Program-made: the position numbers and the translations under genes | Notes under the pieces: generated by a model | What the model saw: the letters and a program-made list of their open reading frames with translations, nothing else | What the model was told of the DNA's origin: nothing | Databases searched by the model: none | IMG/VR virus record: IMGVR_UViG_3300025096_000025 | Span: 1-53,404 of that record | Strand: one strand, 5' to 3' | Length of the DNA stretch: 53,404 nucleotides | Source: a virus | Shown here: in pieces, positions 21,256 through 42,700 of the stretch | How the letters are laid out: the number at the start of each line of letters is the position of its first letter | How positions within the stretch are numbered: position 1 is the first letter of the stretch

Positions 21256-21259
21256 TTAT
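21248..21259 (+). promoter_or_regulatory. Late promoter
   Basis: ATAAATA at 21248-21254, -12 to -6 from the ATG at 21260, overlapping the amidase stop codon. Confidence 0.7.
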
Positions 21260-22098: not shown

Positions 22099-22103
22099 GT
22101 ATA

Positions 22104-22110
22104 TATTTAA
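22104..22110 (-). promoter_or_regulatory. Late promoter
   Basis: TTAAATA on the minus strand at -12 to -6 from the GTG at 22098. Confidence 0.7.
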
Positions 22111-22141
22111 TACAATTGATTGAAAAATAAAAGGTTAATGT

Positions 22142-22153
22142 TATAATTGTTGT
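22142..22153 (+). promoter_or_regulatory. TATAAT promoter at -12 without GGAAC
   Basis: TATAAT at 22142-22147, exactly -12 to -7 from the ATG at 22154. No GGAAC box, so possibly a middle class. Confidence 0.6.
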
Positions 22154-22606: not shown

Positions 22607-22608
22607 AT

Positions 22609-22620
22609 TATAATAGTATT
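22609..22620 (+). promoter_or_regulatory. TATAAT promoter at -12 without GGAAC
   Basis: TATAAT at 22609-22614, -12 to -7 from the ATG at 22621. Confidence 0.6.
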
Positions 22621-22989: not shown

Positions 22990-23206
22990 ACAATTTATCG
23001 CACAGCAGGGCTCAACTAGTACAGTTAGAATATTTGAAGCAGGTACAGGAAAATTATATAGAGTTATTACTGTAGGCGGTAGTATTGTTTCGCAACCTTA
23101 TATGGCAGGCAACCTTATGACTGTTACGGTTGAAAGTCATGGTAAAAAGCAAGTAAAGACTTTTTCTTTACCCGGTGGTGGTCTTAAGACCACTATACCT
23201 GTTTAA
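22976..23206 (+). CDS. Hypothetical protein (76 aa), beta-rich
   Basis: A short all-beta pattern (TVRIFEAGTGKLYRVITVGG). May be a small virion decoration or structural protein. No family recognised. Confidence 0.6.
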   Translation: MNKSKQFIAQQGSTSTVRIFEAGTGKLYRVITVGGSIVSQPYMAGNLMTVTVESHGKKQVKTFSLPGGGLKTTIPV

Positions 23207-23226
23207 CCTTTATATATTAATAAAGA

Positions 23227-24210
23227 ATGGACGGGAACACTATATTTACGGAGCAGGTATCTAGAAAGCCTAACATGTATCCATGGACGGATCAGTTCAT
23301 TGAAGCGATGCATAATGGGTTTTGGACTGATAAAGAATTTTCTTTTAAATCAGATATTCAACAATTTAAAGTTGAGTTGACAGAACAGGAAAGAGAAATT
23401 ATAGTTAGGACACTTTCAGCTATCGGTCAAATAGAAGTTGCGGTTAAGACATTTTGGGCAAAGTTAGGAGACAACTTACCGCACCCATCGTTAGCTGATT
23501 TAGGATATGTTATGGCTAATACAGAAGTTATTCATAACAATGCTTATGAAAGGCTTCTTGATATTCTCGGACTAGAAGAGGTCTTTGAAGAAAATCTTAA
23601 GCTTGAATGGATACAGGGCAGAGTAAATTATTTACGTAAATACACACATAGGTTTTATAAAGACAGCAAGAAACAATACCTATACGCTTTAATTTTGTTT
23701 ACTCTTTTTGTTGAAAATGTTTCTTTATTCTCTCAGTTTTACATTGTTAACTGGTTTGCTAGGAATAAAAATGTTCTTAAAGATACAGACCAACAAGTAA
23801 AATATACTAGAAATGAAGAAAATATTCATGCACTTGTAGGTATTAAAATTATTAATACTATAAGAGAAGAGCTGCCTGAACTTTTTGATGAAGGGCTAGA
23901 AGAGAGAATTTTACATGAAGCACAAGAAGCATTATCTGCGGAGAGTAAAATTGTTGATTGGATGGTAAATGGGTATGAGGAAGAAGGGCTAAACGCAGGT
24001 GTTTTAAAGGGATTTATAAAAAATAGAATTATTAGTTCTTTAGAACAAATAGGTTTTAAAGCACCTTTTGAAGTTGATAATGATGCTTTAGCCAGTACAA
24101 TGTGGTTTGAAGAGGAGTTACTTGGCAATAATATGGCAGACTTCTTTCATACGAGACCTACAGAATACTCTAAGAAAAATCAATCATTTTCAGAAGAGGA
24201 TCTATTTTAA
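23227..24210 (+). CDS. nrdB: Class I ribonucleotide reductase small subunit
   Basis: The 327-aa R2-type ferritin fold makes the radical cofactor for reduction of ribonucleotides. Metal ligands by alignment are E70 (QIEVAV, where E. coli has Asp), E100 and H103 (TEVIHNNAY), the Glu of FVENVS, and Glu/His in NEENIH. A radical Tyr is present at Y107, four residues after H103. Ligands appear complete, so this is not a metal-free variant. The gene overlaps nrdA by 1 nt (TAATG). Confidence 0.92.
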   Translation: MDGNTIFTEQVSRKPNMYPWTDQFIEAMHNGFWTDKEFSFKSDIQQFKVELTEQEREIIVRTLSAIGQIEVAVKTFWAKLGDNLPHPSLADLGYVMANTEVIHNNAYERLLDILGLEEVFEENLKLEWIQGRVNYLRKYTHRFYKDSKKQYLYALILFTLFVENVSLFSQFYIVNWFARNKNVLKDTDQQVKYTRNEENIHALVGIKIINTIREELPELFDEGLEERILHEAQEALSAESKIVDWMVNGYEEEGLNAGVLKGFIKNRIISSLEQIGFKAPFEVDNDALASTMWFEEELLGNNMADFFHTRPTEYSKKNQSFSEEDLF

Positions 24211-25856
24211 TGAAAACTTATAGCTGGCTAAACGGAGATTCTAGAAAATTTCTTAAGCGTGGGTATTTAGAAGGGGATGAGTCACCAGAAGAAAGAATTC
24301 AAACTATTGCTGATTCTGCGGAGAAATATTTAGGTATTAAAGGATTTTCAGATAAGTTTACAGACTATATGTCTAAAGGGTTTTATTCTCTCTCTTCTCC
24401 TATTTGGTCTAATTTTGGTAAAAAGAGAGGCCTGCCTATTTCATGTTATGGGACTTATATTCCAGATGATATGGAGCTAATTCTTAATAAAGTTTCAGAA
24501 GTAGGTACAATGTCTAAAGTAGGCGGGGGAACCTCGGGCTATTTCGGAGCCGTTAGGCACAGGGGGGCTCCCATATCGTCTGGAGGCAGTGCGACTGGTG
24601 TTCATCACCAGCTTACAGTCTTTGATGCCCTTATAAACTATGTGTCACAAAGCAATGTTAGACGAGGGTCCTTTGCAGCTTATTTACCGGTTGAACATCC
24701 CGATATTGAGGAGTTCTTAAGAATAAGATCTGAAGGGGACAATATTCAAGATATATCTACAGGTGTATGTATTACCGATAAGTGGATGCATGCTGTAGTA
24801 GATGGTGATAAAGAAAAGAGAAAAATTTGGGGCAAGATAATAAGGAAACGATATGAGACAGGTTATCCATATATCTTCTGGACTGATACTGCTAATGATA
24901 ATGCTCCACAAGTTTATAAAGATAAAGGCAAAAGGATTCATGCAAGTAACCTTTGTACTGAAATATTTCTTTCTTCAGAGGAGGATGAATCGTTTGTTTG
25001 CGATTTATCTTCTCTTAATTTAGTCAAATGGGATGAAATTAAAGAGACAGATGCTATTGAAACATTAGTTTATTTTTTAGATGCGGTAATGTCTGAATTT
25101 ATTAAAAAGACCAAAGGGGTTAGATTTATGGAAGCTCCGCATAATTTTGCTGTTAGACAAAGGGCGCTTGGAGTTGGTGTTCTTGGATGGCATACATATT
25201 TACAATCTAAAAGAATTGCGTTTGAATCACTAGTAGCTAAGGCAACTAATAATGAAATATTTGTTAAGATAAAAGACAGGTGTGATAGAGCTACAAGAGA
25301 GCTTGCAGAGTTATTTGGTGAACCTGAGCTATGCAAAGGGTATGGTATTCGCAATGTCACCACTATGGCAATTGCCCCAACGACAAGCAGCTCTTTTATT
25401 CTTGGACAGGTGTCACCGTGTATTGAGCCATTAAATTCTAACTACTTCACAAAAGATTTAGCCAAGGGTAAGTTTACTTACCGTAACCCACATTTAGTTG
25501 AGCTTTTAGAAGAAAAAGGAAAAAATGATCCTAGTACATGGAAGAGTATTCTCACACACGGAGGTAGTGTGCAACATTTAAAATTTCTATCCGACGAGGA
25601 AAAAGGCATATTTAAAACATTTGGAGAGATATCTCAAAGAGAAATAATTATTCAAGCAGCAATGCGGCAAAAATATATTGATCAAGGGCAGTCCTTAAAT
25701 GTAATGATCCCGCCAAATACTAAGCCAAAAGAAGTAAGTGAATTATTAATTTATGCCTGGCAAAGTGGTATTAAGTCATTATACTATCAGAGGAGTGCTA
25801 ACCCTGCTCAAGAGCTGGCAAGAAATATTCTTAATTGCGCTTCATGTCAAGGCTAA
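24210..25856 (+). CDS. nrdA: Class I ribonucleotide reductase large subunit
   Basis: The catalytic subunit shows the redox Cys in LPISCYGT (C79), the active-site trio in SNLCTEIFL (Asn, radical Cys, Glu) and a C-terminal Cys pair (C543 and C546, NCASCQG) for re-reduction. At 548 aa it is shorter than typical NrdA (about 750) and lacks the N-terminal ATP-cone, so it should escape dATP inhibition, a common viral trait. It is coupled to nrdB and followed 5 nt later by clpP. Confidence 0.92.
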   Translation: MKTYSWLNGDSRKFLKRGYLEGDESPEERIQTIADSAEKYLGIKGFSDKFTDYMSKGFYSLSSPIWSNFGKKRGLPISCYGTYIPDDMELILNKVSEVGTMSKVGGGTSGYFGAVRHRGAPISSGGSATGVHHQLTVFDALINYVSQSNVRRGSFAAYLPVEHPDIEEFLRIRSEGDNIQDISTGVCITDKWMHAVVDGDKEKRKIWGKIIRKRYETGYPYIFWTDTANDNAPQVYKDKGKRIHASNLCTEIFLSSEEDESFVCDLSSLNLVKWDEIKETDAIETLVYFLDAVMSEFIKKTKGVRFMEAPHNFAVRQRALGVGVLGWHTYLQSKRIAFESLVAKATNNEIFVKIKDRCDRATRELAELFGEPELCKGYGIRNVTTMAIAPTTSSSFILGQVSPCIEPLNSNYFTKDLAKGKFTYRNPHLVELLEEKGKNDPSTWKSILTHGGSVQHLKFLSDEEKGIFKTFGEISQREIIIQAAMRQKYIDQGQSLNVMIPPNTKPKEVSELLIYAWQSGIKSLYYQRSANPAQELARNILNCASCQG

Positions 25857-25861
25857 ATATT

Positions 25862-26491
25862 ATGAAGTGGAAATATCAAAACGAAGAGGATACTCAAGAA
25901 GAACAACAAGAGCACTCCGGTCATCAATATATTATTAACACCGCGTCTTCCTCCGGTGGTTCTGTTACGAAAGTAATAGAAAATAATTTATATTTTTATG
26001 GTGATATTACAGAAGCTAATGCACTTGAATTAAACGCGGCATTATATGAACTCGATAAAAAACTTTCCATCACCGGGGTGTTTTTAGATATCAAACCGGT
26101 CATTAGATTGCATATTAATTCTTATGGTGGTTCTCTTTTTGCCGGTCTCGCAACTGTTGATGTTATCCGGAATTTAAAGAGTGATGTGCACTCTATTGTC
26201 GAAGGAGCAGCAGCATCAGCAGCAACTATTATATCTGTCGTGTGTACAAAGAGATCAATGGGGAGATATTCCAAAATGCTTATACATCAGTTAAGCTCTG
26301 GAGCTTATGGCAAGTATAATGAGTTGGAAGATGATATGGAAAATAACTCACACTTAATGAGCACTATAAAAGAGATTTATAAGGTATATACCAATGTGCC
26401 TATGAAAAAATTAAATGAGATATTAAAGCACGATCTTTGGTTTGATAGTAAAACGTGTCTAGAATTAGGTCTTGTTGACGAGATTAACTAA
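25862..26491 (+). CDS. clpP: ClpP-like serine protease
   Basis: The start at 25862 avoids the overlap of the longer frame at 25835 with nrdA. The ClpP/crotonase fold is seen in INSYGGSLFAGLA, the catalytic Ser in EGAAASAAT (S119) and the His in MLIHQLSS (H142); a downstream Asp lies in LWFDSKTCLELGLVDEI. The first 35 residues are an unusual Glu/Gln/Ser-rich extension. No Clp ATPase gene is near. It could mature phage proteins, as phage ClpP-type prohead proteases do, or work with the host Clp ATPase. Confidence 0.88.
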   Translation: MKWKYQNEEDTQEEQQEHSGHQYIINTASSSGGSVTKVIENNLYFYGDITEANALELNAALYELDKKLSITGVFLDIKPVIRLHINSYGGSLFAGLATVDVIRNLKSDVHSIVEGAAASAATIISVVCTKRSMGRYSKMLIHQLSSGAYGKYNELEDDMENNSHLMSTIKEIYKVYTNVPMKKLNEILKHDLWFDSKTCLELGLVDEIN

Positions 26492-28250
26492 TTGTATTTG
26501 AACCGTCTTTTGGAATGTCTGGCGGTTCAGGATTTATTCGTCCATTTTCTCTTAGTCTTTCTCTATCATGTGGATCAAGGAAAGCGTCATCAATGGTTAA
26601 TGCTCTCGGTGGTTGAGCAACATTTGTGGGTTGTTTCTTTTCATGCTTTATTATTTGTGCTTGTGCTTGATAACCATTAATATTAATACCTTCCCCTTGC
26701 GCTATTGTTCTTACACTTTGGTTACCGTCAGTTAGTCTAAGAGGTAAATTCTTAAAGTGGTGACTGTGTGGTGGAGCTTGAATTTTATAATTGCTATCTT
26801 CTTTTAGCGTAAGTGTTGCTGTTGTTGATCCGTTCCATAACTCCTCCCATGTGGAAAAGCCGCTTATTTTAGCTTTAAATTTTAACCCTTTTAATAATTT
26901 TGCATATAATATTGTGTCTTCTGTTTGTTGAGTTTCAGCAGGAGCTGTAACATGGTGTAAATATGTCTCCCCTTCCGTGTAAGTTGAACCACCAACAATA
27001 GTATTATTTTTAACTCCTAAACTAGGCTCAACTAATATTTGTCTATTTGATCTTAAAGAAATGGTTTTTGCTGATTGAAGCTCGACAACATTTTCACTTG
27101 AAATGTTTACCCCGGCTGCTGATTGTAAATTAATTTTATGTGCAGAAACTTTTATTGACGTCCCACCAATCTCTACTGGCCCACTTGTCTTGAGCTGCAT
27201 ACCTCCAGAACCAACTATTACATTATATTTATTTCCAACATTTAGTGTATAGTTACCTACTGGAAAGGCAGATGAATTATCAACCTCTTCCACATGTGGG
27301 ACACTATCTACATTGACATAAGATGTATCAATACCGACATTTACCTCAGAAGGTTGAGATCTACCTTCAGGGTCTATACGAACAGATGGGTAGTCGTTTG
27401 TAGTAGCACCAACTACTTCGACTTTATTTCTATATGTAAACTCTTCTTCGTCGCCACCATTACCCATTCGCTGTTCAACAGGGTTAAGTTGCTCTTGCAA
27501 TGCTAAAAGGTCTTCCGGTAAACTTTGATGAGCTGGGTTAGCGGACCACTGCCCTCCTTCAGTAGCTGCGTTCTCTCCGGGGCCGTATTTTGTTACACCA
27601 TCAGCATTAGAAGCATATCCACCTGCACCAGACCCTGTATTAATATCAGCAATAGTGGGGTTAACTCCAAACAATACACCCGGGTTTGCAATAGGAGCTA
27701 CCGGTGTATACCTATTAACCTCATTTATGTCACCATTAACAACTGGCGGTAGCCCGTAGCCCGGCCACCGGTCATTAATAATGTAATGCTCTTGACTAAT
27801 AGTTGAATTCGGCGCCCTGCCGCCAGCCTGAGGAGTTGTAACACCGTTTGGATAGCTTTTACCTCCTCTTAATATTTCAAATTGCGAGTTTTTTTCTGCT
27901 ATTGGTCTGTATAACTCTTTCCATTCGTCAACTGCATCAATTTCATCTTGATTGCTAAACCCCTTGTATTTATACGTATTTTCAACAACTCGTTCTATAT
28001 AATCTTTTCCTGTATATACATTCTTATCATTTAATACAGTCTCAAAACTATCATTGTTAACTTTAACTTGTTTGTTATTAGCAGCCAACTCACTATTAAC
28101 CATGTTATTTAACTTAACATTTGATCCGGAAAAGTGTGATATGTTTACTGCTTCCCTATCTGTAGAGTTTACTATCTCAAGTGCCCCACCGCGTTGGTTC
28201 CAGACAAACTTATTTCTATACTCTTGCTCTGTTGAGGTTTCTTTACTCAT
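26484..28250 (-). CDS. Baseplate spike / tail hub protein (gp5-like, 588 aa)
   Basis: The N-terminal 150 residues are mixed. A Pro/Gly-rich linker follows, then a repetitive beta region at about residues 340-440 (NVGNKYNVIVGSGG, VEIGGTSIKVSAHKINLQSA) with the short-strand periodicity of gp5/VgrG beta-helical spikes. A histidine-rich segment APPHSHHF lies near residue 495. No lysozyme domain is visible, unlike T4 gp5. It abuts the OB-fold hub gene upstream (1-nt overlap). Confidence 0.7.
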   Translation of the reverse strand: MSKETSTEQEYRNKFVWNQRGGALEIVNSTDREAVNISHFSGSNVKLNNMVNSELAANNKQVKVNNDSFETVLNDKNVYTGKDYIERVVENTYKYKGFSNQDEIDAVDEWKELYRPIAEKNSQFEILRGGKSYPNGVTTPQAGGRAPNSTISQEHYIINDRWPGYGLPPVVNGDINEVNRYTPVAPIANPGVLFGVNPTIADINTGSGAGGYASNADGVTKYGPGENAATEGGQWSANPAHQSLPEDLLALQEQLNPVEQRMGNGGDEEEFTYRNKVEVVGATTNDYPSVRIDPEGRSQPSEVNVGIDTSYVNVDSVPHVEEVDNSSAFPVGNYTLNVGNKYNVIVGSGGMQLKTSGPVEIGGTSIKVSAHKINLQSAAGVNISSENVVELQSAKTISLRSNRQILVEPSLGVKNNTIVGGSTYTEGETYLHHVTAPAETQQTEDTILYAKLLKGLKFKAKISGFSTWEELWNGSTTATLTLKEDSNYKIQAPPHSHHFKNLPLRLTDGNQSVRTIAQGEGININGYQAQAQIIKHEKKQPTNVAQPPRALTIDDAFLDPHDRERLRENGRINPEPPDIPKDGSNTIS

Positions 28251-29008
28251 TAAACTGTAGCTGGTTTGTTTTCAAAGGTGTCTGGGTAATCTTGACTTGG
28301 TGCTGGTCCATCGCCTGTTGTAGGTGCATCAGCAAATATAGGCCCAGTTTCCCTATAACTCACTCTTCCGCCAAAGTATACAGGGAAGTTTAAATCACCT
28401 CTATAGTGAAACACCCACACTTGCGCTCCTACTCTCGGGACCCCAAAAGTACCTGCAGGGGCATTATTATAATTATTTGGTTGAAAGTCTTGTCCATACG
28501 GATTGTTATTTACAGTGAAATTACTAGTAGGGTCTGTAAAAGCATCTCCAATATTTGTTTCCTGATTTTCATATGCAAAAGCAGGTCCAAAAGAACCCTC
28601 TTCAATATTAGGCGGCTTTTCATCGTTTGTTTGAAATCCTTCTTTAAAATTAGTATCAGAAGCTGTACCAATTTCACCCGGGCCGTTATAACGCATCGGT
28701 CCATATTCACCTAAAATAGGTACTACTGGCTCAGCCCATGGTATAAATTTTGACATTTCTTCAAAAATTTTAGTATCTGACCAGTTATCAGAAGGATTAT
28801 TTACACCAGGAAAACGTACATTAATACTACTATCAGAAAATGATTGAAGCCAGTTCCCCAGAGGCTGGTTAGATACTTCTGGAATGTATACCTTTACGCG
28901 AAGCAATTGCTCGGGGTCGTTATTTTTTACTACAGTGCCTTTAAAAAAAGACTGATCGTCTCTCTTATATTCAATTCCTTTATTGGAACCCCTTACATAA
29001 ACACTCAC
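28250..29008 (-). CDS. Baseplate hub OB-fold protein (252 aa)
   Basis: The start codon GTG at 29008 matches the late promoter. The N-terminal YKRDDQSFFKGTVVKNNDPEQLLRVKVYIPEVS pattern (broken here by the usual loop positions) is the OB-fold opening of phage tail hub and gp5-type proteins. VPRVGAQVWVFHYRGD and YFGGRVSYRETG close the fold. Together with the spike gene downstream it would form a split hub/spike. Confidence 0.7.
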   Translation of the reverse strand: MSVYVRGSNKGIEYKRDDQSFFKGTVVKNNDPEQLLRVKVYIPEVSNQPLGNWLQSFSDSSINVRFPGVNNPSDNWSDTKIFEEMSKFIPWAEPVVPILGEYGPMRYNGPGEIGTASDTNFKEGFQTNDEKPPNIEEGSFGPAFAYENQETNIGDAFTDPTSNFTVNNNPYGQDFQPNNYNNAPAGTFGVPRVGAQVWVFHYRGDLNFPVYFGGRVSYRETGPIFADAPTTGDGPAPSQDYPDTFENKPATV

Positions 29009-29013
29009 AAATA

Positions 29014-29020
29014 TATTTAA
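29014..29020 (-). promoter_or_regulatory. Late promoter
   Basis: TTAAATA on the minus strand at -12 to -6 from the GTG at 29008. Confidence 0.75.
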
Positions 29021-29045
29021 TCGTTGAATCTTTAACTCAAGTACC

Positions 29046-29056
29046 TATAATAAGGT
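29046..29056 (+). promoter_or_regulatory. TATAAT promoter
   Basis: TATAAT at 29046-29051 (-11 to -6 from the ATG at 29057). Confidence 0.55.
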
Positions 29057-29842
29057 ATGCTTGTAAGTCATGAATCTCCCATATCAATGCTAGATAAGTC
29101 TCGTACTTATAATGATTATGATTATGCTTTAGTGCATTTATTTGAAACTGAGCCTGAATACTATAACTTTTTTAAAGTTTCTAAGACATTAGGTAGAGAG
29201 GTTTTATTGGATAATTCTATTTTTGAATTAGGTAAATCATTCGATCCAAAGAAGTTTGCTAAATATATTAATGAGTTGGAACCTACTTATTATGTTGTAC
29301 CTGATGTATTAGAGGATTGTACACAAACTGTGTCCTCATTTCATAAGTTTCGTATGGACCATCCAGGGTTACCCGGGTTAAAGATAGGTGTTGTGCAAGG
29401 TAAAACATATCAAGAGTTAGCACAGTGTTATAAATATATGGCTGATAATGCAGACTATATTGCTATCTCTTTTGATTATTCCTGGTACCAAACAATTTCT
29501 TATAATAACCCAATGTGGATTCTAGGTGAACAAAGTAAGGGTAGGAGACGCTTTATTAATATGCTTCAGGAAGATGGTATATGGGATTATAGTAAACCAC
29601 ACCATCTCCTAGGATGCTCGTTAGCTAGTGAATTTACGCATTATAAATCGGATAAAAGCATTAGATCACTTGATACATCAAATCCAGTTGTTGCTGGGGT
29701 TCTTAATAAGAGATATTATAAAGACATTGGCTTGCTTGAAAAGCCTTCTGTACTACTGGCAGATCTTATTAATGCAGAACTTAATGTGGAGCAAGAAGGA
29801 GATATACTATATAACGTTGAAGAGTTCAAAAAACTTATTTGA
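29057..29842 (+). CDS. TGT/DpdA-like 7-deazaguanine transglycosylase
   Basis: The 261-aa protein shows a TGT-type barrel pattern: LLDNSIFELG (about 50-59), PDVLED (82-87, candidate catalytic acids), the TGT motif KIGVVQGKTY (109-118) and HLLGCSLASEF, which corresponds to the LxGxG strand. It is shorter than tRNA TGTs (about 370 aa) and lacks the CxCxxC zinc knuckle. Both are traits of phage DpdA proteins that exchange guanine in DNA for a 7-deazaguanine. QueD and QueF in the same window support this. A tRNA substrate is the alternative. Confidence 0.7.
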   Translation: MLVSHESPISMLDKSRTYNDYDYALVHLFETEPEYYNFFKVSKTLGREVLLDNSIFELGKSFDPKKFAKYINELEPTYYVVPDVLEDCTQTVSSFHKFRMDHPGLPGLKIGVVQGKTYQELAQCYKYMADNADYIAISFDYSWYQTISYNNPMWILGEQSKGRRRFINMLQEDGIWDYSKPHHLLGCSLASEFTHYKSDKSIRSLDTSNPVVAGVLNKRYYKDIGLLEKPSVLLADLINAELNVEQEGDILYNVEEFKKLI

Positions 29843-29857
29843 CACTAAATATAATAA

Positions 29858-30028
29858 GTGAAAGATAATCATCAAACGATTATAACTCGAGCAAACGATA
29901 GAGAGTTTTTTCCGCTAGTAAATAATTCCATCAAACGTTTTTTGTTGTATATATTAATGTGGCTAGTTGGAACAGGTTTAATGGTCGCCCCGGCATGGGC
30001 GCTTGCTTCATACATTATTTCGAAGTAG
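29858..30028 (+). CDS. Small membrane protein (56 aa)
   Basis: A GTG-started frame with one long hydrophobic helix (FLLYILMWLVGTGLMVAPAW) and a short C terminus. A TAAATATAATAA stretch precedes the start. It overlaps the convergent cyclase gene by 14 nt. Function unknown. Confidence 0.55.
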   Translation: MKDNHQTIITRANDREFFPLVNNSIKRFLLYILMWLVGTGLMVAPAWALASYIISK

Positions 30029-32072
30029 CTCTAAAGATTGTATCCCAGTCTTCTCCCGGATCATCTTCTTTTAAATGAGCTATTCTAGCTTCCATCATCT
30101 GGTAATATTCCCTTAGTTCCGGGTAGGTAAGTTTATTAAGTTCAGCCAGTTTTATAGCCCTGCCCCATTGTCTGCTTCTATAATATTGTAAAAATGTATT
30201 ATGATGTGTAACATCTCCGCTGTGGTTAGCATAACTAGTATCCTCTAATACAGCAAAGATTCGAACACCTTCTTTTTTACCTTTAACAGCTATTTTATCC
30301 AACTCTACAAAATTAAACTTATCTTCTATACCTTCGACTGTACCCTGTCCTACTATTAAACCTACCTTATATTCTTTAGTCTGGCCCTCTAATCGAGAAG
30401 ATAAATTTACCGCATCACCTAGACAGGTATAATCAAATCTTTGCTCTGATCCCATATTACCAACAACAACATCTCCTGTATTAATACCAACTCCAATTTT
30501 TAATTCATCAATTCCTTCTTTCATTACCTCCCTGTTTAATTGAGCTAATAAATCAAACATTTTTAAACCACATTGTATAGAATGAACCTTATGGTCTTTT
30601 ATATCTACAGGAGCATTCCAAAATGCCATTAATGCGTCACCGATAAATTTATCAACAGTACCCTCGTGATCGATTACACAGCCAGTCATAGGTGTTAAAT
30701 ACCGGTTAACTAGTTCTGTAAGGCCTTGGGGATTAGTTTTAAAATGCTCACTAATAGTTGTAAACCCTCTAAGGTCGCTAAAGAGTATAGAGAGCTCTCT
30801 AGTATCACCTCCTAACTTTAATTGGGAAGGATCTTTTTGCAAAAGCTTAACAATGGGTGGAGCTAAATAGTGTTCAAATTGTTTTTTAATTAATTGTTTA
30901 GATCTATTTTCATTTATAAATCTAATAAAAGTAGCACAGGCCCAGGTTACAAATACACAAGCAAATGGCCAAGTATAATCGATTAACCACCCGTTATTAC
31001 TATATAACATGTTGCCTATAATAGGTCCAGCAGCTAGAGATGCTAGTATGGCCACTAAGCTAAACATATAGGATAACCAAAGAGCACCAAGGATAAGAAG
31101 GGAGCAGAAGGCTGCTGTAATAATGACTTCTAAAATGGTCGATTCTGTAGGACGTTGTAATCTAGATTCATCAATAATCATTTGTAAGGCTTGACTATTA
31201 ACTTCATGTCCGTATCTAATACCCACTGGAGTAGCTATTGTATTAGCAAGGCCTTCACCGGTGAGTCCTAATACCGCGATTTTATCTTTTACTATAGACC
31301 AATCAGCGTCTTTAAAGGATACTTTATCAAATTCATACTTAAAGTTTAACCAAATACGAGAATTTTCGTCTGTGGTTATTGGGTCAAATCCAGGGACCCT
31401 TATAGCCTCTACACCTCCTAACCCTACTTTAGCTTGATAAGATTCCTGGCCGGCAAATAATCTTATTACTTCTAATGGGACGGTTGGATATGATTCACCT
31501 TTTATTTGTATAACCAACGGCATTCTACGAACTACACCATCGAGTTCAGGTGCTGTTAATATCATACCTACCCCGGCTGCAGATTCTCCTAACCCTTTAA
31601 CAGGTCCTATAGCTTCAGGGTAGTCAAATAACCAATTATCTAAGCTTTCTCCTATTGTAGCCAATCCCCTTGGCACCGGTGTTCCTTTACCTTTTGTACT
31701 TGCTGACTGTCCTATAATTACCGGAACTTGGTCTAATACGCTTATTAATTCTTTATCACCGCCGAGCCTATCTGGTTCAGCGAATAAAATAGGAATGACA
31801 ACTAGTTGAGCACCACTCTCAAACGCTTTAATAATGCCGTTAGCAATTAAATCTCTTTTCCATGGCCACTGACCATATTCATCTAGACTACTTTCATCTA
31901 TTTCGATAATAGCTATATTTTCTGATTTAACTTTTTCTTGCTTATTTTGATAATAATCAAGGCCTTTTAAACGAGCAGTTTCAATAAAGAAAGGGTCGAT
32001 CATTCGAAGCACTACCATTAGCATAGTAATAGCTATACATATTAGATAGTTTTTAATATTAAAAATCTTCAT
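30015..32072 (-). CDS. CHASE2-domain class III nucleotide cyclase (685 aa)
   Basis: An N-terminal membrane helix (about 7-27) is followed by a periplasmic CHASE2 sensor domain (about 35-310; IAIIEIDESSLDEYGQWPW, LVVIPILFAEPD). Further membrane helices at about 320-400 lead to a cytoplasmic cyclase domain (about 420-600). The metal aspartates are in LFSDLRGFT and KFIGDALMAFW, the Lys of that motif fits ATP, and CLGDAVNLSSRLEG holds the Asp/Asn/Arg of the active site. It should make cAMP in response to an envelope signal. It overlaps the FecR gene by 4 nt. Guanylate cyclase activity is less likely. Confidence 0.9.
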   Translation of the reverse strand: MKIFNIKNYLICIAITMLMVVLRMIDPFFIETARLKGLDYYQNKQEKVKSENIAIIEIDESSLDEYGQWPWKRDLIANGIIKAFESGAQLVVIPILFAEPDRLGGDKELISVLDQVPVIIGQSASTKGKGTPVPRGLATIGESLDNWLFDYPEAIGPVKGLGESAAGVGMILTAPELDGVVRRMPLVIQIKGESYPTVPLEVIRLFAGQESYQAKVGLGGVEAIRVPGFDPITTDENSRIWLNFKYEFDKVSFKDADWSIVKDKIAVLGLTGEGLANTIATPVGIRYGHEVNSQALQMIIDESRLQRPTESTILEVIITAAFCSLLILGALWLSYMFSLVAILASLAAGPIIGNMLYSNNGWLIDYTWPFACVFVTWACATFIRFINENRSKQLIKKQFEHYLAPPIVKLLQKDPSQLKLGGDTRELSILFSDLRGFTTISEHFKTNPQGLTELVNRYLTPMTGCVIDHEGTVDKFIGDALMAFWNAPVDIKDHKVHSIQCGLKMFDLLAQLNREVMKEGIDELKIGVGINTGDVVVGNMGSEQRFDYTCLGDAVNLSSRLEGQTKEYKVGLIVGQGTVEGIEDKFNFVELDKIAVKGKKEGVRIFAVLEDTSYANHSGDVTHHNTFLQYYRSRQWGRAIKLAELNKLTYPELREYYQMMEARIAHLKEDDPGEDWDTIFRATSK

Positions 32073-33094
32073 TGCTGCTTAATGTTAAACTGAACATTAT
32101 TACCTGAGTTAAATTTTGCATTAATTATACTCCCTTTATTATCGTAATTAACAGTAACGTTACTGCCATCTTCAACTATTAAAGAAATCATATTATCTTT
32201 ATCTTTTGAAAAGAAAACATATCTACCGTCGTCCATTTTTAAAAACTTATTCATAATTTGTTTTTCTTTTCTTTTTATTTTAAAATCGTCAAAATCTTGG
32301 TTATCTTTTTTATCATCCCCAGGCTTTTTCTCTCTTTCTAAGTTATCTTTCTTTTTGTCTTCTTTTGCTCCAGGACCATCTTGCTTTATAACTTGAGGTG
32401 GGGTTGGTGCTGCTATAGCAGATGTTACAGTTGTTGCTTCGTACGCTTTATCTAAAGTAACTGTACCGCCGAGGGTTGATACATCAATAGAACCAACATA
32501 TGAATTTCCAGCTTCGTCAGTAGAAGGTAAGAGTAAAAAACTACTAGCCCCGTCTTCTTGAACATTCATAGTAAAGTCGGTACCACGTACAGACACGGAA
32601 GCAGTAGGTGATTTTATTTTTACATTTTGTCTAGAGTTTTTAGCTATCTTCCCTGAAGAATACCTTATAGTACCTAAGGCTGCTTTTAAAGATAACTTAC
32701 CAGTTTTTTTGTTAGGATTATAAACAAACTCGTCTATTAATAACTTAGAGTATTCTGTAACGCTAACTTTAGTATCATCAACAAATTTTATATTAGCTCT
32801 ACCTTTTAAGGTCTCAATTAAATCTCTCATTTCAACTGGAGTGTTAACCTCAGTTAAAATTTTATCACCCTTTCTAGTAATTTGAGCCGCTTTAGTTTGT
32901 GATGTTACATTCCCTATTTCACCAAAAGCTGGTATTAAAAATAATAAGAATAATAAACTACTCGTTACCAGCCTGTGGTGGGCCGTCTGGGTTGCTAAAT
33001 TCGTTAAACGGTATAACGTTATTTTCAATTTGCTCAGGCATAAATGTCGGATCAAACGCCCCGTCGGTTTGGAATATTTGGTATGCATTTTCAT
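32069..33094 (-). CDS. FecR-domain exported protein
   Basis: A hydrophobic export segment (LVTSSLLFLLFLIPAFG) precedes a FecR-like domain (AAQITRKGDKILTEVNTPVE to SPTASVSVRGTDFTMNV, the last being the family hallmark). A Lys/Asp-rich linker and a C-terminal beta region follow. The ATG at 33094 lies 137 nt inside the curlin gene (+1 frame) and puts 43 residues before the signal segment. No ATG or GTG lies near the segment; TTG or CTG codons are the only alternatives, so the true start is uncertain. FecR domains often pair with CHASE2 cyclases in bacteria. Confidence 0.75.
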   Translation of the reverse strand: MKMHTKYSKPTGRLIRHLCLSKLKITLYRLTNLATQTAHHRLVTSSLLFLLFLIPAFGEIGNVTSQTKAAQITRKGDKILTEVNTPVEMRDLIETLKGRANIKFVDDTKVSVTEYSKLLIDEFVYNPNKKTGKLSLKAALGTIRYSSGKIAKNSRQNVKIKSPTASVSVRGTDFTMNVQEDGASSFLLLPSTDEAGNSYVGSIDVSTLGGTVTLDKAYEATTVTSAIAAPTPPQVIKQDGPGAKEDKKKDNLEREKKPGDDKKDNQDFDDFKIKRKEKQIMNKFLKMDDGRYVFFSKDKDNMISLIVEDGSNVTVNYDNKGSIINAKFNSGNNVQFNIKQQ

Positions 33095-33737
33095 TTCCTA
33101 GAATTGATAATTCAATAAATTGGCTTTCAGCGCCTACTTGTGATACTAATAAAGAGTTACTACTTCCAAAAACATCAACTAGTTGAGAGTGACCAATTAG
33201 ACCACCGTGACCTTCTTGATAGCTACTTATTTCATTTAAAGAACCTGCGATGTGGTAATCAGTAAAGGTATATGAAGTATCAAATAATAACAAATCAACT
33301 GAGTTGGAAGCGCCTTCTACGTTTAAGTTAATTAAGCCGTTATTTACAGTAGCTTTTTGTGTATCTTCCTCATTACCAGCGATTAAAACATTATTAGAAT
33401 CTCCTGCAACAAAAGCATTTACTTCATTTTTATCTCCCTCTAGTGCTAAAATAAACTCATTTGCATCACCCTGTAATTCAATATTTACTAGTTCTTCATT
33501 ACCAATTGAATCAATATCAATTAGGTTTTCATTACCTATAGTTCCAATGTTAAAGATAACTTCTTCACCTTCAATTCGGGATCTGTTAGTACCTTCACCT
33601 AAATTGTTTGCTGAGCCTATTTGAGATATGTTAAATATACCCGCACTACCAATTTGATCTAAATAAATTTCATTGCTTGCGTTAAGCAAGCCTCCGGTAG
33701 TAAATAGTAGAGCTATTAAGAGAGATTTTATTTTCAT
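32958..33737 (-). CDS. Curlin-repeat amyloid-like protein (259 aa)
   Basis: A signal peptide (MKIKSLLIALLFTTGGLLNA) is followed by repeated strand-turn units of curlin type: YLDQIGSAGIFNISQIGSAN, then NIGTIGNENLIDIDSIGNEE and further GNxN units to about residue 120, and again later (GSLNEISSYQEG, SILGNENAYQIFQ). The spacing of Ile, Gly, Asn and Gln matches CsgA/CsgB-like subunits, with more acidic residues than E. coli CsgA. With CsgG and CsgF encoded next to it, it is the likely secretion substrate. A late promoter precedes it. Confidence 0.75.
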   Translation of the reverse strand: MKIKSLLIALLFTTGGLLNASNEIYLDQIGSAGIFNISQIGSANNLGEGTNRSRIEGEEVIFNIGTIGNENLIDIDSIGNEELVNIELQGDANEFILALEGDKNEVNAFVAGDSNNVLIAGNEEDTQKATVNNGLINLNVEGASNSVDLLLFDTSYTFTDYHIAGSLNEISSYQEGHGGLIGHSQLVDVFGSSNSLLVSQVGAESQFIELSILGNENAYQIFQTDGAFDPTFMPEQIENNVIPFNEFSNPDGPPQAGNE

Positions 33738-33742
33738 AAAAA

Positions 33743-33749
33743 TATTTAT
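33743..33749 (-). promoter_or_regulatory. Late promoter
   Basis: ATAAATA on the minus strand (inside TATATAAATA), -12 to -6 from the ATG at 33737. Confidence 0.8.
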
Positions 33750-33756
33750 ATAAAAT

Positions 33757-34620
33757 CTATCCTTTTAACTTGGTTACCGGCATTTTATCTGCTTTTGGCT
33801 CTTTAGCTTCTTCTGTAGGCACCGCCGGTGATTTTTTAAATTTCCACATTTTTTTCTTTTCGCCTTTTGTAATAAGATCAACTATAGCCATATCTATTGC
33901 TGCTCGAGTCGCTACAGATACTAGTTCGTTTTTTGCGAATCCAAATTCTATTTCTAATGGATTTAAAGCATCTTTAACATACTTAAACACGTCTGTGCCA
34001 ACTGCAGTTGAATATATTGTCTTCGATACTGTTGAAGATAATAAAATTTCGCTAGTCAAAGTACTAACAAATCTTATCGATACAGTAACAACATCTTTTC
34101 TATGCTGTTCATGAGCTCCTATTCCAAGATATGCAGCTCCAACTCCGCCAGATACTGCATTTGTATCATATCCAATAATACCACCATGAATTAATAACCC
34201 AGCAAATAACAACGGTTTTAATCCAGTATTATCATCATCTGTAAAATCTTCTCTAGTTTGTTGGACCAGAGCGCGCTCTCTCATTACAGTGTCTAGTTGG
34301 CCTCTTTCTAATACTTTAAACCAACCATTAGATTCTAAAAGAGACTCAATAAGCCAAGCTTCTCCTCCTTGTGAGACAGCAGCAGAAAAACTAGCGAAAT
34401 TATCAGATTGTTTTCTTGCACCTGTTAAATCTTTAAAGCTATTTACACCTATATAAATAGGTTCACCGTCAAGCTCTGGAAGCTTATTTAAAGTTACGAG
34501 TGCGGCTATGGGCGCGGGAGCAACTATTGGAGGATCGTGTGGACCTCCTTGAAAGGTTTCACATCCACTATATAGTAGCAACGACGAGCCTAAAAGACTA
34601 TTCAGCAGTAGATTCTTCAT
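33757..34620 (-). CDS. csgG: Curli secretion channel lipoprotein CsgG
   Basis: The start at 34620 gives a lipoprotein signal ending LLLYSGC (Cys at residue 20); a longer ATG at 34650 would bury it. CsgG signatures are clear: GWFKVLERGQLDTVMRERAL, LLIHGGIIGYDTN, then a transmembrane hairpin region (GAAYLGIG, VVTVSIRFVSTLTSEILLS) and TVSKTIYSTAVGTDVFKYV. It forms an outer-membrane nonameric pore for unfolded curli subunits. At 287 aa it is close to E. coli CsgG (277). A Lys/Pro-rich tail is added. It overlaps csgF by 23 nt. Confidence 0.92.
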   Translation of the reverse strand: MKNLLLNSLLGSSLLLYSGCETFQGGPHDPPIVAPAPIAALVTLNKLPELDGEPIYIGVNSFKDLTGARKQSDNFASFSAAVSQGGEAWLIESLLESNGWFKVLERGQLDTVMRERALVQQTREDFTDDDNTGLKPLLFAGLLIHGGIIGYDTNAVSGGVGAAYLGIGAHEQHRKDVVTVSIRFVSTLTSEILLSSTVSKTIYSTAVGTDVFKYVKDALNPLEIEFGFAKNELVSVATRAAIDMAIVDLITKGEKKKMWKFKKSPAVPTEEAKEPKADKMPVTKLKG

Positions 34621-35065
34621 TAATAGGCTCGGGCAGTAGGAGAGATCCAATGGGAATTAAAATTGTTGTAAGATCACCATCAGTGTCAACTACAGTTAAA
34701 TTAATTTTATCAGCTAGTCTATACCAGGAAATAACATTACCGTCAAGATCAAAGGACCCAGAATCTGAACCAGTATCTGCAAACAATTGCTCGGTAACCT
34801 GCTTAGAAAGCTCTGAATAAATCCGTGACTGTAAGTTTGTTAAGAACACCTGTAGCGGTCTTCTATTATTAGCTAAATTAGCCTGAATTGCTAATGATTT
34901 TAGCTCGTCCTTAACTGTTTTCTTTCTAGCTGCGGAAATATTTTCTAGATTAATTTTATGTGCACTATAGCCAAGGCCGCTAAAAGACGGGGATTTAAAT
35001 TTAAATTTTAATTCATCAGCTGCAGCGCTACTACAGCAAAGTAATACTAACCAAATATACCTCAT
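34598..35065 (-). CDS. csgF: Curli assembly factor CsgF-like
   Basis: A signal peptide (MRYIWLVLLCCSSAAA) is followed by LKFKFKSPSFSGLGYSAHKI, corresponding to the CsgF N terminus (FxFRNPNFGGNP) that inserts into the CsgG channel. LQVFLTNLQSRIYSELSKQV and INLTVVDTDGDLTTILI match the later CsgF helix and strands. It couples secretion to nucleation at the cell surface. The late promoter GTAAATA lies at -12 to -6. No csgE is visible in the window. Confidence 0.85.
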   Translation of the reverse strand: MRYIWLVLLCCSSAAADELKFKFKSPSFSGLGYSAHKINLENISAARKKTVKDELKSLAIQANLANNRRPLQVFLTNLQSRIYSELSKQVTEQLFADTGSDSGSFDLDGNVISWYRLADKINLTVVDTDGDLTTILIPIGSLLLPEPINEESTAE

Positions 35066-35070
35066 AACAC

Positions 35071-35077
35071 TATTTAC
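35071..35077 (-). promoter_or_regulatory. Late promoter
   Basis: GTAAATA on the minus strand at -12 to -6 from the csgF ATG at 35065. Confidence 0.7.
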
Positions 35078-35095
35078 CTCTATTAATATATATTG

Positions 35096-35395
35096 CTAGA
35101 GTCTAGTGTCTGAAATATGCTTATTTTTTCTCCTATTCTCTCTTCTCTCCTCTTCATGCATTTTTTCTTGCTCTTGAAGAATCATTTGAATTTTTGTATT
35201 AAGACGAATCATGTCGTTATCTAACATTCTTATTCTATCGATAAGCCCTATTAACGTTCCTGTGGATTCATCTAATACAGGTTTTATTTCCTTTACAACC
35301 CAGTTCCATGTATAATATACAAAATAACCTAAACCGAATGCTGCAATAATCGGAAATCCAAAATCATTTATAGCTTTAACTATTTCATCACTCAT
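35096..35395 (-). CDS. Membrane/coiled-coil protein A (99 aa)
   Basis: A membrane helix (FPIIAAFGLGYFVYYTWNWVV, about residues 14-34) followed by a coiled coil (LIDRIRMLDNDMIRLNTKIQ) and a Lys/Arg-rich tail. Paralogous to the next gene upstream. Small phage proteins of this shape are often annotated as holin-like. Coupled to its neighbour by a 1-nt overlap. Confidence 0.6.
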   Translation of the reverse strand: MSDEIVKAINDFGFPIIAAFGLGYFVYYTWNWVVKEIKPVLDESTGTLIGLIDRIRMLDNDMIRLNTKIQMILQEQEKMHEEERRENRRKNKHISDTRL

Positions 35396-35676
35396 TAGTC
35401 TTTTCTAGCATCCTCCTTTCCTTCATTAGCAGCTAATCTATCTAAATTTGGATGCTTGTTAAAAGCGTAAGATACTAATGTATCGATTTTTACTATATCA
35501 TTATTCATCGTCTGTACCCTATTTTCTAATGATTTTATCATTCCTCCTAAACCTTTTACAGCGCCTGTTATTTCACTGAGTATAAATTTAAGAATAATAA
35601 AAACAAATGCTCCACATGTTATAGCTCCTGCTATAGGGAAACCGACATCAGTAACGAACTTTAAGAACTCTTCCAC
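35395..35676 (-). CDS. Membrane/coiled-coil protein B (93 aa)
   Basis: The GTG at 35676 was chosen because a TTAAATA late box sits at -12 to -6; the longer frame to 35793 would overlap the divergent gene. Membrane helix (VGFPIAGAITCGAFVFIILKF) and coiled coil (IKSLENRVQTMNNDIVKIDT) match protein A. It heads the leftward unit that runs into the curli genes. Confidence 0.6.
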   Translation of the reverse strand: MEEFLKFVTDVGFPIAGAITCGAFVFIILKFILSEITGAVKGLGGMIKSLENRVQTMNNDIVKIDTLVSYAFNKHPNLDRLAANEGKEDARKD

Positions 35677-35681
35677 TAAAT

Positions 35682-35688
35682 TATTTAA
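35682..35688 (-). promoter_or_regulatory. Late promoter
   Basis: TTAAATA on the minus strand at -12 to -6 from the GTG at 35676. Confidence 0.7.
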
Positions 35689-35732
35689 TATACCTCTTGA
35701 AAAATGACCGTTTGGGTATAAAATAATAAATA

Positions 35733-36116
35733 ATGCTCCAACTGATACTCCATTTAATTGGTGACTATCTCCTTCAGAGTGATTGGATGGCACTTAATAA
35801 AACGAAATGCAGTAAAGCAGCTGCAGCGCATGCGCTTACATATTCGTTACCTTTTTTAATTTTGGACCCATCTGCCGTGGCATTTGCTGTAATTTGCATA
35901 ACTCACTTTTTTATTGATCGTTTTAGATTAGCTCGGTATGTTGTTTATGCTAAAAATTTAATACTCGGTCCTAAAAAGTATTGGCATAAATGGGAAGATT
36001 GCAAAGAGACAGGGTATCATAAAGATGTTCCACAATGGTTGTCATTATGGTTATTAGTTGCTAGCGACAATACTATTCATTTGCTTATTAACTGGGCGGC
36101 GTTATCATATCTATAA
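35733..36116 (+). CDS. DUF3307 membrane protein (127 aa)
   Basis: HLIGDYLLQSDWMALNK near the N terminus and ICITHFFIDRFRLARY are the two motifs of DUF3307, a small integral-membrane family found in bacteria and phages, with conserved His and Asp residues. Three or four membrane helices. Function not established. Overlaps the next gene by 1 nt. Confidence 0.75.
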   Translation: MLQLILHLIGDYLLQSDWMALNKTKCSKAAAAHALTYSLPFLILDPSAVAFAVICITHFFIDRFRLARYVVYAKNLILGPKKYWHKWEDCKETGYHKDVPQWLSLWLLVASDNTIHLLINWAALSYL

Positions 36117-37247: not shown

Positions 37248-38183
37248 ATGGTAAAGCTCGATAATAAAAACGTTAGTAAACATCTAGGTCAGACCTCAGA
37301 ATATAAATCTACTTATGATCCGAAGCTCCTGGTTAGAGAGCCTCGCCAATCTAATAGAACGCATCTAGGGATTACGGATGATGATTTACCTTTTGTAGGC
37401 AATGATACTTGGAATGCTTATGAAATTTCAGCTCTTACTAATGAAGGTCTTCCTGTTGTTGGTGTAGCTAAAATTGTATATCCTTGTGAAAGTAAATATA
37501 TTGTTGAATCTAAGTCTATTAAGTTATATTTTAATTCCTTTAATATGACGAAATTAGGTGAGACTAGTGAGGTAGTTCTCGATAATATTAGCATTATGGC
37601 TAGGAAGGATTTAAGCGAGCTGCTCGATATGGTCGTTGAGGTTAAGGTCCATTCTAATAAAAGAGTTTTAGGTGATACTTCTATTTTTGTAGCAAAAGAT
37701 GAGTGGATGCATGGAGAGAATTGTACTCCTAGTTATATCACTCTTGAAGATGAATACCCTGTTGATAATACAGAATTTTCCGTATATAAAGAAACACCTA
37801 ATCTTCTTAAAGAAATTGAAGATGCACCATCAGATAAAGTTTATTATCATAGTGCTTTGTTAAAATCTAATTGCAGGGTTACATCTCAACCGGATTGGGG
37901 AGATGTTTATATCTATATAAAGGGTAGAAATACTGTAGATCCTATTTCTCTATTACAGTATATTGTATCATTTAGAGATGAATGTCATTTTCATGAGGAA
38001 ATTTGTGAAGCTATTTATAAGCGATTAATGGATACAATTCACCCAGAAGAATTAAGTGTAAGGTGTTTATATGCTCGTCGAGGTGGAATTGATATTAATC
38101 CGGAGCGCGCCTCACATAAAAAGCTACTGCATCACACGCTTAGTCAAATTGATGTACCGCATATTAAAACCCCAAAACAATAA
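37248..38183 (+). CDS. queF: 7-cyano-7-deazaguanine reductase QueF
   Basis: This NADPH-dependent enzyme reduces preQ0 to preQ1. The two-domain (E. coli-type) form is evident. The N-terminal half has LGQTSEYKSTYDPKLL, WNAYEISALTNEGLP and the QueF motif ESKSIKLYFNSFN (87-99). The C-terminal half has LLKSNCRVTSQPDWG with catalytic C209 and D216, FHEEICEAIYKRL and YARRGGIDINPERAS. At 311 aa it is slightly longer than E. coli QueF (282). The final base made by this phage is therefore more likely preQ1 than preQ0. Confidence 0.95.
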   Translation: MVKLDNKNVSKHLGQTSEYKSTYDPKLLVREPRQSNRTHLGITDDDLPFVGNDTWNAYEISALTNEGLPVVGVAKIVYPCESKYIVESKSIKLYFNSFNMTKLGETSEVVLDNISIMARKDLSELLDMVVEVKVHSNKRVLGDTSIFVAKDEWMHGENCTPSYITLEDEYPVDNTEFSVYKETPNLLKEIEDAPSDKVYYHSALLKSNCRVTSQPDWGDVYIYIKGRNTVDPISLLQYIVSFRDECHFHEEICEAIYKRLMDTIHPEELSVRCLYARRGGIDINPERASHKKLLHHTLSQIDVPHIKTPKQ

Positions 38184-39706: not shown

Positions 39707-42700
39707 ATGAGACTGTTTAGCGAAAAGGTAGTCCCTACCTTTACTAGCTCAGATCTTAACATCTTAACAGTTAAAAGTTTAGAAGAGACTTTTTTCGATG
39801 TTTATGAATTTGAGATAAACGGTAAAAAATTTATTGCAGAAAAGAAGAGCCTGTATATGGGCTCTCCTGTCGTAGATATACCGGTAGAGATAGAGGATGA
39901 AGAGTTTATAGCTCCTTTCATATTACGTGAAGGCGTATTTAATGTGGAGTTTAATAAAAATAATAAAACCTACGTAGGTTCAGTTACAAAAGAAGAGCCT
40001 GAAATAGTTTTAGAAGAGGTTGTAGAGGAAGAAGTAGAAGAAATAATCGACCTACCATCAATAGTTGATGAATTGTGTGTTGAACAGGGGTCCCCAACCT
40101 CGAGAATGATCTTTGATCAAAATGTAGATGTATCCGTATCGGATTATGATTATAATATTTTAATTGTAGATAATTTTGATGAAGTATATTTTGATATATT
40201 TGAAGTAAAGATTAATAATAAAACCTATAACGCGGAAAAGATATCTGAATATAAGGGACGGCCTGTAGTTAGTGTACCTATTATATTCGAAAATAAAGAA
40301 TATATTGCACCTTTTGTTCTAGAAAAAGGACCACAGGAAGTATTCTTTAATGAGAATAATTTACAATTTGTAAAACACATTAAGGAAGAGAAGTTAGACC
40401 TTCCGGAGTTTGATAAAGATGTTGTCGAGGATGTTGTTTTAGAGAAAAAAGAAGATATATTACAGGATATAGCTAAAGCGAGAAAATTAGCTAAAAAATA
40501 TGCTGAAGATATTAAGCAGCAAAAAATTGACGAAGCTAATAACACTATCAAGTCAAATGAGCAGCGAGTCGAGAGTTACTTAAAAGATGTTAGAGCAGAG
40601 TTAACGAGCGAATTTCTTACAATTGTAGAAAAAGTAAATACAGACTTAAAGGAAGATACAGAATCTACAACAAAAAATTTAACTTCTTATATTGAAACGT
40701 ATGTAGAAAGGGAAAGTAATAGGTTATTAGATAATTTAGAAGAGCTCAATGAAGGCAGTATTCAGCATTTTGAAGCAAAGATTCAAGAGTTAGTAAAGAA
40801 CATATACACCAACAATCTCACTAAGTTAATCAACGAGAAAAATAACGATAATATATCACGTTACACTAAGTTATTTAAGAATACAAAAACTTCGTTAGAA
40901 GAACTGTTGGATGAAAATAAAGAAGAAATAAAAACTTCTTTAGATAGTCTTGAGGAAAAGGTTGACATAGATATAACAACGCTAGAAAAAAGTAATGTAG
41001 TTTTAGAAGATAAATTACAACGCGGTCTTAACAAAGCTCTTAGCAGAGCCGGGAATATAAAGATAGATACATTAAAGGAAGTAGATAGCAGAATTAAAGT
41101 TACAGAGGAAAAAATAACTGATGTATACGAGGTAACGTTAAACGAGGTCGGTCAGCAGTTAGATAAAAGAATACAGGATGTATCTTATATTAACGAAAAA
41201 ATAGAAAACTTAACACAGGTTAGTGAGAGCGGTGCGCATGCTACGGAAGAAGAGTTAAAGGATGTAAAGAGTGATATTGTTAAGTTACAGGTTGAAAAAG
41301 GTCTATTAAGTGAAAGGATTGCTGAAAGTAAAGTTTTATTAGATAAAGGAATAGATAAACTAAACAAGCTTAATAAAAATATAGCTAAAGAAAATAAAAT
41401 CTATATAAAGGAAGAGGTAGATAAACTTACAAAATATAGTGAAAAAAGCTCCGAACAGACAGCTACTAAATTAGATAGATTTAGTAGCAAAGTAACTAAA
41501 CAGATACAAGAAGCTAAACAGCATTTAGATAAGGATTTAGAGAAGACAGACACAAAAATTTCTGAAGCTAAAAAATCCGCTCGAAAAGATATAGATAATA
41601 CTGAGCAAGTATTAACCTCTTTAATAGAGGCAAGGTTAGAAGATACTAATACCGAAATTAATAAGCTTTTAACAAAAAAGGTTAAAAAGGTAGATGATGA
41701 ATTTAAGGAGCAGCTAACATCTAAAATAGAGGAAAACAAAAAGATACTCTTTCAAGAGGTAGAAGAGTTAAAGCAAACACTACCTGAAACAATAGAAAAA
41801 AAATTAGCTCTAGAACAGGTACAATTTGATAAATTACCTGAAAAAAATGAAAAGATTGATGTTAAAGGTATTAAAAGAGATTTAGAGAATAAATTATCTT
41901 CAAGCTTAAATTCGAGATTTACGCAGGAAATAGCTGCTGTAAGAAGATATCTAGATACTTACGGCGGGGGAGGTGGTAGTGTTGCAAAGCAGTTTGCCGA
42001 TGGCGGTACTATGACGGGAGATCTTGACGTTATTAATAAAGCTAGTATATTGTCCGGTGGTGTAGATCTCGCTGATATATTTGCAACATCAGAAGAAGCA
42101 AGTGGAATAACCGGGTCAGGAACGAAAGGTTATGTACCTTATTTTTCTGATAGTACAACTTTAGCAAATAGTCTTTTAAGCGGCGGTACAGCTGTAACAA
42201 GAACGACTGGTTCTTTAAGCGCTACAACTGATATATATGTTGGTGGGTGTCTTGGTATTGGAACTGTCACACCAAATGAAGAACTTACTGTAGCTGGTAC
42301 CTTAAGCGCATGCACGTCTGTTTACAGCAACAGTATCTGTGGTATATCAACAGTTTGTGGTGCTGCTGTATGCGGTACAACTTCAGTTCGTAGTCCTGCT
42401 GTATGCGGTACAACTTCAGTTCGTAGTCCTGCTGTTTGTGGTTCAACTTCTGTTTGCGGAGGTACTGTAGTAGGTACTTCTATAAGCGCTACATCTACCA
42501 ACAGTGGTTTTGTTTCAGCAGGAAGGGACTTAGCTGATATATTTACAACTTGCTCTGGTGATGTAACCGGTGTTACAGCCGGCCCTGGTCTATCTGGAGG
42601 GGGTACAGAAGGAGACGTAACTGTCGGTGTTGGTTTTGGTGACGGTATAACTGTTGCCGCCGACACGGTTGCAGTTGATAGTACAGTTGTAAGAACAACT

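Follow-up and report, generated by a model that had tools for sequence, protein, structure and literature searches.

Pelagiphages are known to carry genes for curli export (type VIII secretion, T8SS). CsgF, CsgG, curlin, FecR, and adenylate cyclase genes have been described in pelagiphage podoviruses and myoviruses, with a proposed role in curli regulation (PMC9599517; mSystems 2022). csgF and csgG were also reported in pelagimyophages (PMC7029224) and in the phage Melnitz (PMC9004378). In Burkholderia, an operon containing a FecR and a CHASE2-kinase affects biofilm (PMC5192318). Here, we analyzed a 53,404-base IMG/VR virus record (the window, meaning this whole stretch of DNA), which carries seven closely packed minus-strand genes, running from ~35.7 to 30.0 kb in the order tmA, tmB, CsgF, CsgG, curlin, FecR, and CHASE2-cyclase. 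The csgF, csgG, and curlin-repeat genes are adjacent, as in the pelagiphage T8SS module. It is nearly certain that the locus is this module, already published for SAR11 phages. The first-pass annotation had proposed an undescribed system, a claim overturned by PMC9599517, where these genes are already reported together with FecR and cyclase. The module is carried by phages of the most abundant ocean bacteria, and it raises the puzzle of why a phage would build a surface amyloid and monitor it with a cyclase.

Gene content and integrity of the operon

The operon is headed by two small membrane-protein genes, both on the minus strand. tmA (35395–35676; start GTG at 35676, the longest ORF extending to 35793) encodes a 93-aa single-pass membrane protein with a coiled-coil-like tail ending in DARKD, as judged from phrog_18771 (E 2.8e-26), the family alignment, and the hydrophobic stretch. 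tmB (35096–35395; 99 aa; phrog_18771, E 5.3e-31) is its paralogue, with one membrane helix and a coiled-coil-like tail (RIRMLDNDMIRL). In both, one hydrophobic segment is followed by a charged tail, and the alignment supporting tmB contains 11 invariant columns. The genes in the position before csgF are named histidine kinases in PMC9599517, where they are called "short" and diverged; we equate them with tmA/tmB from position and shortness. No HisKA domain was found in 28 phage records, where the sole HATPase_c match was a 635-aa frame far from the module, so a kinase identity of tmA/tmB was rejected. The small genes of HTVC008M and Melnitz likewise contain no kinase domains. Because these reference phages fail the kinase test equally, the mismatch reads as a naming problem, and the window still belongs to the pelagiphage module. 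The position of the pair varies: in L009, L010, and L013, it is located downstream of the cyclase and on the other strand rather than ahead of csgF, and it was not found in loci with 700–800-aa FecR proteins (L045, L055, L062, and others).

Small single-pass proteins at the head of an operon would suit lysis timing, in which CsgG/CsgF would serve as a gated pore or pinholin-like device, with the timing of envelope opening tuned by the tm pair and the cyclase (PMC9004378). The Melnitz authors argued for this from synteny and from missing csgA/B (PMC9004378). However, curlin genes do occur (PMC9599517 and the present analysis), even in the GenBank annotation of Melnitz, so the argument from missing curlin fails. 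A holin identity, BhlA-type or otherwise, was also rejected for the tm pair, as no Pfam holin family was matched and only a weak YvrJ match appeared. Furthermore, FecR, the cyclase, and usually the tm pair persist in a type I secretion (T1SS) version that contains no CsgG (see below). We therefore consider lysis timing unlikely.

CsgF, the curli pore partner, is encoded at 34598–35065 on the minus strand (PF10614, E 2.8e-16) and CsgG, the outer-membrane curli export pore, at 33757–34620 on the same strand (PF03783, E 1.8e-48; lipobox LYSGC). The CsgG ORF was listed to TTG 34650, but ATG 34620 is the likelier start. Both a lipoprotein-type N-terminus and the CsgG domain are present, and residues 23–272 match the solved CsgG 3x2r (E 1.2e-35). 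CsgE gave no match among the operon genes in a Pfam profile search, which fits the proposal that CsgG/CsgF without CsgE import larger molecules into the infected cell (PMC7029224, PMC9599517). Nevertheless, an uptake pore would leave curlin, FecR, the cyclase, and the T1SS version unexplained, and we find it hardly credible.

The curlin-like exported amyloid subunit (32958–33737, minus strand) was assigned by its position and its homology to Melnitz curlin genes, which match PF07012. The first-pass call of a curlin gene stands on motif enrichment and the solenoid model, though the protein has no Pfam match of its own. It contains 11 GxxN and 5 QxG motifs compared with 3.2 and 1.3 in shuffles, within degenerate two-strand repeats of ~22 aa. 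The model is a regular solenoid with two strands per 22 residues (pLDDT 78.7) and a disordered C-terminus. A Foldseek search of this model against the PDB gave no match below E 0.001; thus, the identification relies on homology, motif content, and the solenoid pattern.

The final two operon genes alone occupy 30015–33094, where the annotation had placed a FecR gene and a full CHASE2-transmembrane-cyclase gene; Pfam domains and intact catalytic residues bear this out. The exported FecR-domain protein is encoded at 32069–33094 (minus strand). Its ORF begins 137 nt inside the curlin ORF, an overlap falling mostly in the curlin region modelled as disordered, and starts at ATG 33094 or at ATG 33088, the latter preceded by AGGA at a distance of 7 nt. 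The cyclase gene (30015–32072, minus strand) overlaps the FecR gene by 4 nt (ATGA), as the annotation had noted, and the overlap is retained in the five nearest relatives of the window, L001–L005, whose cyclases are 53–82% identical to that of the window.

A chimeric assembly was excluded. L002, an IMG/VR contig from a different metagenome, is colinear with window positions 20078–36115 at 75% nucleotide identity, and this ~16-kb colinearity with an independent contig spans both suspected edges (about 29.9 and 35.7 kb). L001 is colinear across most of the same interval. No close DNA relatives were found among GenBank phages, and the module gene order recurs in more than 20 phage contigs and in the isolates HTVC008M and Melnitz, answering the annotation's call for recurrence. 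Its idea of one unit is also supported, as an operon; its five-gene set is present, but it omitted the two small membrane-protein genes. For the cyclase, FecR, curlin, CsgG, and tmB genes against L001/L002, dN was 0.08–0.16 and dS 0.9–1.7 (NG86), giving dN/dS of ~0.1 with dS close to saturation. With that reservation on dS, the low ratio indicates that these five genes are under purifying selection. On sequence grounds, the 35.7–30.0 kb region is a real seven-gene operon, predicted to serve curli-type amyloid export together with a surface sensor expected to produce cAMP.

Other features were observed in the window. A one-piece tmRNA with an unusually long predicted tag of 32 aa lies at 17080–17495 (RF00023, 137 bits); the Melnitz tmRNA is two-piece (PMC9004378). 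At 16850–16983, a 36-bp unit is present in 3.7 perfect copies within an ORF. One ORF, still open where the contig ends, runs for at least 3114 aa and is filled with Cys-rich repeats of 33 bp, or 11 aa, such as TSVCGPAVCGT (44062–53403, and 42351–42454). Near the module, at 23227–26491 and 37248–38183, are a ribonucleotide reductase pair, a ClpP-like protease, and a GTP cyclohydrolase-like gene; the reductase large subunit is ~61% identical to those of phages of alphaproteobacteria.

FecR protein, CHASE2-cyclase, and the missing cAMP reader

The FecR protein begins with an export-type hydrophobic segment and matches PF04773 (E 1.1e-9), a domain found in 28/28 FecR homologues. Its model has a mean pLDDT of 78, with residues 19–190 mostly above 90 and the C-terminal part at only ~60–75. 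The model aligned with the PupR cell-surface-signalling domain (6OVK; Z 15.7, 128 residues, 2.4 Å) and with the cell surface anchoring domain 5IX9 (Z 10.5, 73 of 76 residues, 2.0 Å). We take 5IX9 to be the N-terminal part of a Marinomonas ice-binding adhesin, which holds the adhesin at the outer membrane. In the FecR C-terminus, solenoid-like strands recur about every 11 residues, and the end is a nearly invariant IxQ (IxIxQ); as modelled, these strands and this end resemble curlin strands. A Pfam search of the FecR homologues gave no match to the PF07012 curlin repeat in their tails.

The last gene encodes a CHASE2-transmembrane-class III adenylyl cyclase with a C-terminal tail. Pfam places CHASE2 (PF05226, E 1.9e-37) at residues 16–328 and Guanylate_cyc (PF00211, E 1.1e-21) at residues 425–601, and the catalytic domain matches the solved adenylyl cyclases 6fht (E 2e-39) and 2w01 (E 4e-35). 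Metal-binding Asp433 and Asp479, adenine-binding Lys475, and transition-state Arg560 are conserved in 84/84 aligned homologues, transition-state Asn556 in 83/84, and a Thr or Ser occupies position 549 in 83/84. The class III adenylyl cyclase set (two metal Asp, Lys, Thr/Ser, Asn, Arg) is thus complete in the window, and this complete, conserved active site makes it likely that the phage cyclase is catalytically active. In a quick tree, all phage cyclases grouped in a single clade, separate from the bacterial cyclases sampled (SH-aLRT 100).

This conservation bears on the proposal that the surface amyloid serves aggregation or "sibling capture" or keeps other phages out (PMC7029224, PMC9599517), in which the cyclase merely boosts amyloid expression or is a passenger. 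The minimal export set and curlin are complete, as this proposal would need. However, a passenger cyclase would not retain its metal, substrate, and transition-state residues in 83–84 of 84 homologues, and the Melnitz authors observed no clumping in culture (PMC9004378).

We then considered what would read the product. None of the 27 phage records contained a cNMP-binding domain, whereas the control was positive in 10 of 14 genomes; a phage-encoded cAMP receptor was ruled out as a cNMP-binding domain in these records. In the family of the MAG "Candidatus Pelagibacter sp. MED605," 58 of 60 genomes contained no cNMP-binding domain, with the caveat that the MAG may be impure. Similarly, 58 of the same 60 genomes contained no class III cyclase, and one of the two cyclase matches was in the MED605 bin, which also contains the phage contig L112. 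With no cNMP receptor in the phages and almost none in the SAR11-type family, the signal would be one without a known reader, a gap in the cAMP step that the first-pass annotation had not foreseen. The target in SAR11-type hosts is unlikely to be a receptor of the CRP type. A non-signalling role then has to be considered, in which host or defence metabolism would be the target of the cyclase, through nucleotide drain or interference with nucleotide-based defence, and the surface genes are mere neighbours. Nevertheless, a nucleotide drain would need no sensor, whereas CHASE2 is kept and, at each of the 26 well-flanked loci, the cyclase is coupled to FecR and an export system. We therefore regard this role as very unlikely.

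Putative sensor genes beside two secretion systems

Among cyclase loci with enough flanking sequence, a FecR gene was present in 26/26, accompanied by CsgF/CsgG in 23 and by a T1SS set in 3. Similarly, of 28 whole cyclase-bearing phage records, 24 contained CsgG and the remaining 4 contained HlyD, with no record having both or lacking both; no CsgF was found anywhere in a 172-kb T1SS record. In T1SS loci, a FecR-cadherin(-RTX) adhesin, a TolC-like outer-membrane protein, an ABC-type membrane domain, and HlyD precede the cyclase in that order, and the tm pair usually comes after it. Here, the FecR domain forms the N-terminus of the exported cadherin/RTX adhesin itself, which ties FecR to the appendage rather than to curli as such; the 5IX9 match, to an adhesin-anchoring N-terminus, fits this arrangement. 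Since all loci keep FecR and the CHASE2-cyclase, these form the common element, while the appendage and exporter vary.

Such T1SS sets precede the CHASE2-cyclase in phage-type contigs (L060:2727–11923, L047:2104–11809, L046:2459–11902, L058, L085, and L086). The ABC protein of these loci is only 253 aa, with no ATPase domain matched within it. Some contigs inside bacterial MAGs (L084, L085, L086, L112, and L139) also carry cyclase modules of the phage type, accompanied by tm, curli, or T1SS genes; these are probably phage contigs binned into bacterial genomes.

In the quick tree, the T1SS-locus cyclases formed a single clade (SH-aLRT 99) within the phage cyclases. Given this one clade and the small number of T1SS loci, the switch between curli and T1SS may have been a single event. 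Searches with phage-derived profiles found no T1SS genes near true bacterial CHASE2-cyclases, leaving a T1SS ancestor of the module unsupported. A narrow literature search returned no relevant paper on the phage T1SS version.

The replacement of curli by a cadherin/RTX adhesin makes adhesion a common theme, in favor of the surface-amyloid proposal; nevertheless, a cyclase that was only a passenger would not be expected beside both of two different secretion systems. We consider this proposal somewhat unlikely, and it is partly compatible with a sensor.

The best overall explanation, to which we assign a probability of about 0.5, is a phage curli module with a FecR/CHASE2-cyclase sensor of appendage status. 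The pairing of FecR and CHASE2 for envelope signalling linked to amyloid export, as first annotated, is supported. The mechanism itself, in which FecR would report to the CHASE2-cyclase, is quite possible, its steps being drawn from gene content. The infected cell would export curlin to the surface through CsgG/CsgF, with the FecR protein located in the periplasm or at the pore. The anchoring/signalling fold and solenoid-like tail of FecR could engage the outgoing fibre, and the state of FecR (free, bound, or consumed by export) would be read by the periplasmic CHASE2 domain, which would set cyclase activity and hence cAMP. More tentatively, the FecR fold and CHASE2-cyclase, usually with the tm pair, might be less an addition to curli than a sensor able to combine with either of two appendages, a T8SS amyloid or a T1SS cadherin/RTX adhesin. 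In SAR11-type hosts it would make a cyclic nucleotide that lacks a canonical receptor in host and phage alike, the output passing through a non-canonical reader. That two unrelated secretion systems are accompanied by the same sensor half sets the sensor apart from curli. This separation makes the question testable, through the cyclase response to appendage export and the reader of its product.

Relation to described systems

5IX9 and PupR 6OVK have the same fold as the FecR model, at low sequence identity (13–19%). The phage FecR shares the periplasmic FecR signalling fold of PupR-type anti-sigma regulators by profile and model, but has no visible N-terminal or membrane anti-sigma part. In the Burkholderia BiofilmReg operon (PMC5192318), an exported FecR protein adjoins a CHASE2 membrane sensor, as here. 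However, its CHASE2 protein is a histidine kinase, its FecR is fused to LysM, and curli genes are absent, unlike in the window.

Bacterial CHASE2-cyclases (Methyloceanibacter, Desulfovibrio, Zoogloeaceae, and others) have the same domain order and the C-terminal tail, with best segments mostly 27–40% identical, and form a clade separate from the phage cyclases. A FecR gene is often close by, but curli and small-TM genes are absent. In L099, L105, L108, and L114, such loci had a recurring neighbourhood of a FecR gene and an MBL-GAF-HD protein; L099 additionally has a TPR/SlipAM-type protein.

HTVC008M (NC_020484) and Melnitz (MZ577095-98) have the same order as the window, the tm pair included. 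However, a second curlin follows FecR before the cyclase in both and is absent from the window, and their cyclases are only ~41% identical to that of the window; the HTVC008M match ends at residue 606, without the C-terminal tail found in the window. The module of PMC9599517 similarly has a second curlin between FecR and cyclase, in contrast to the window and L001–L005, and was described with curli only, not with T1SS. The missing cAMP reader and the generalization to T1SS are additions of the present analysis and worth following. Like the window, the published module is phage-encoded and marine, and it shares CsgF, CsgG, curlin, FecR, the cyclase, and one or two preceding short genes with the window.
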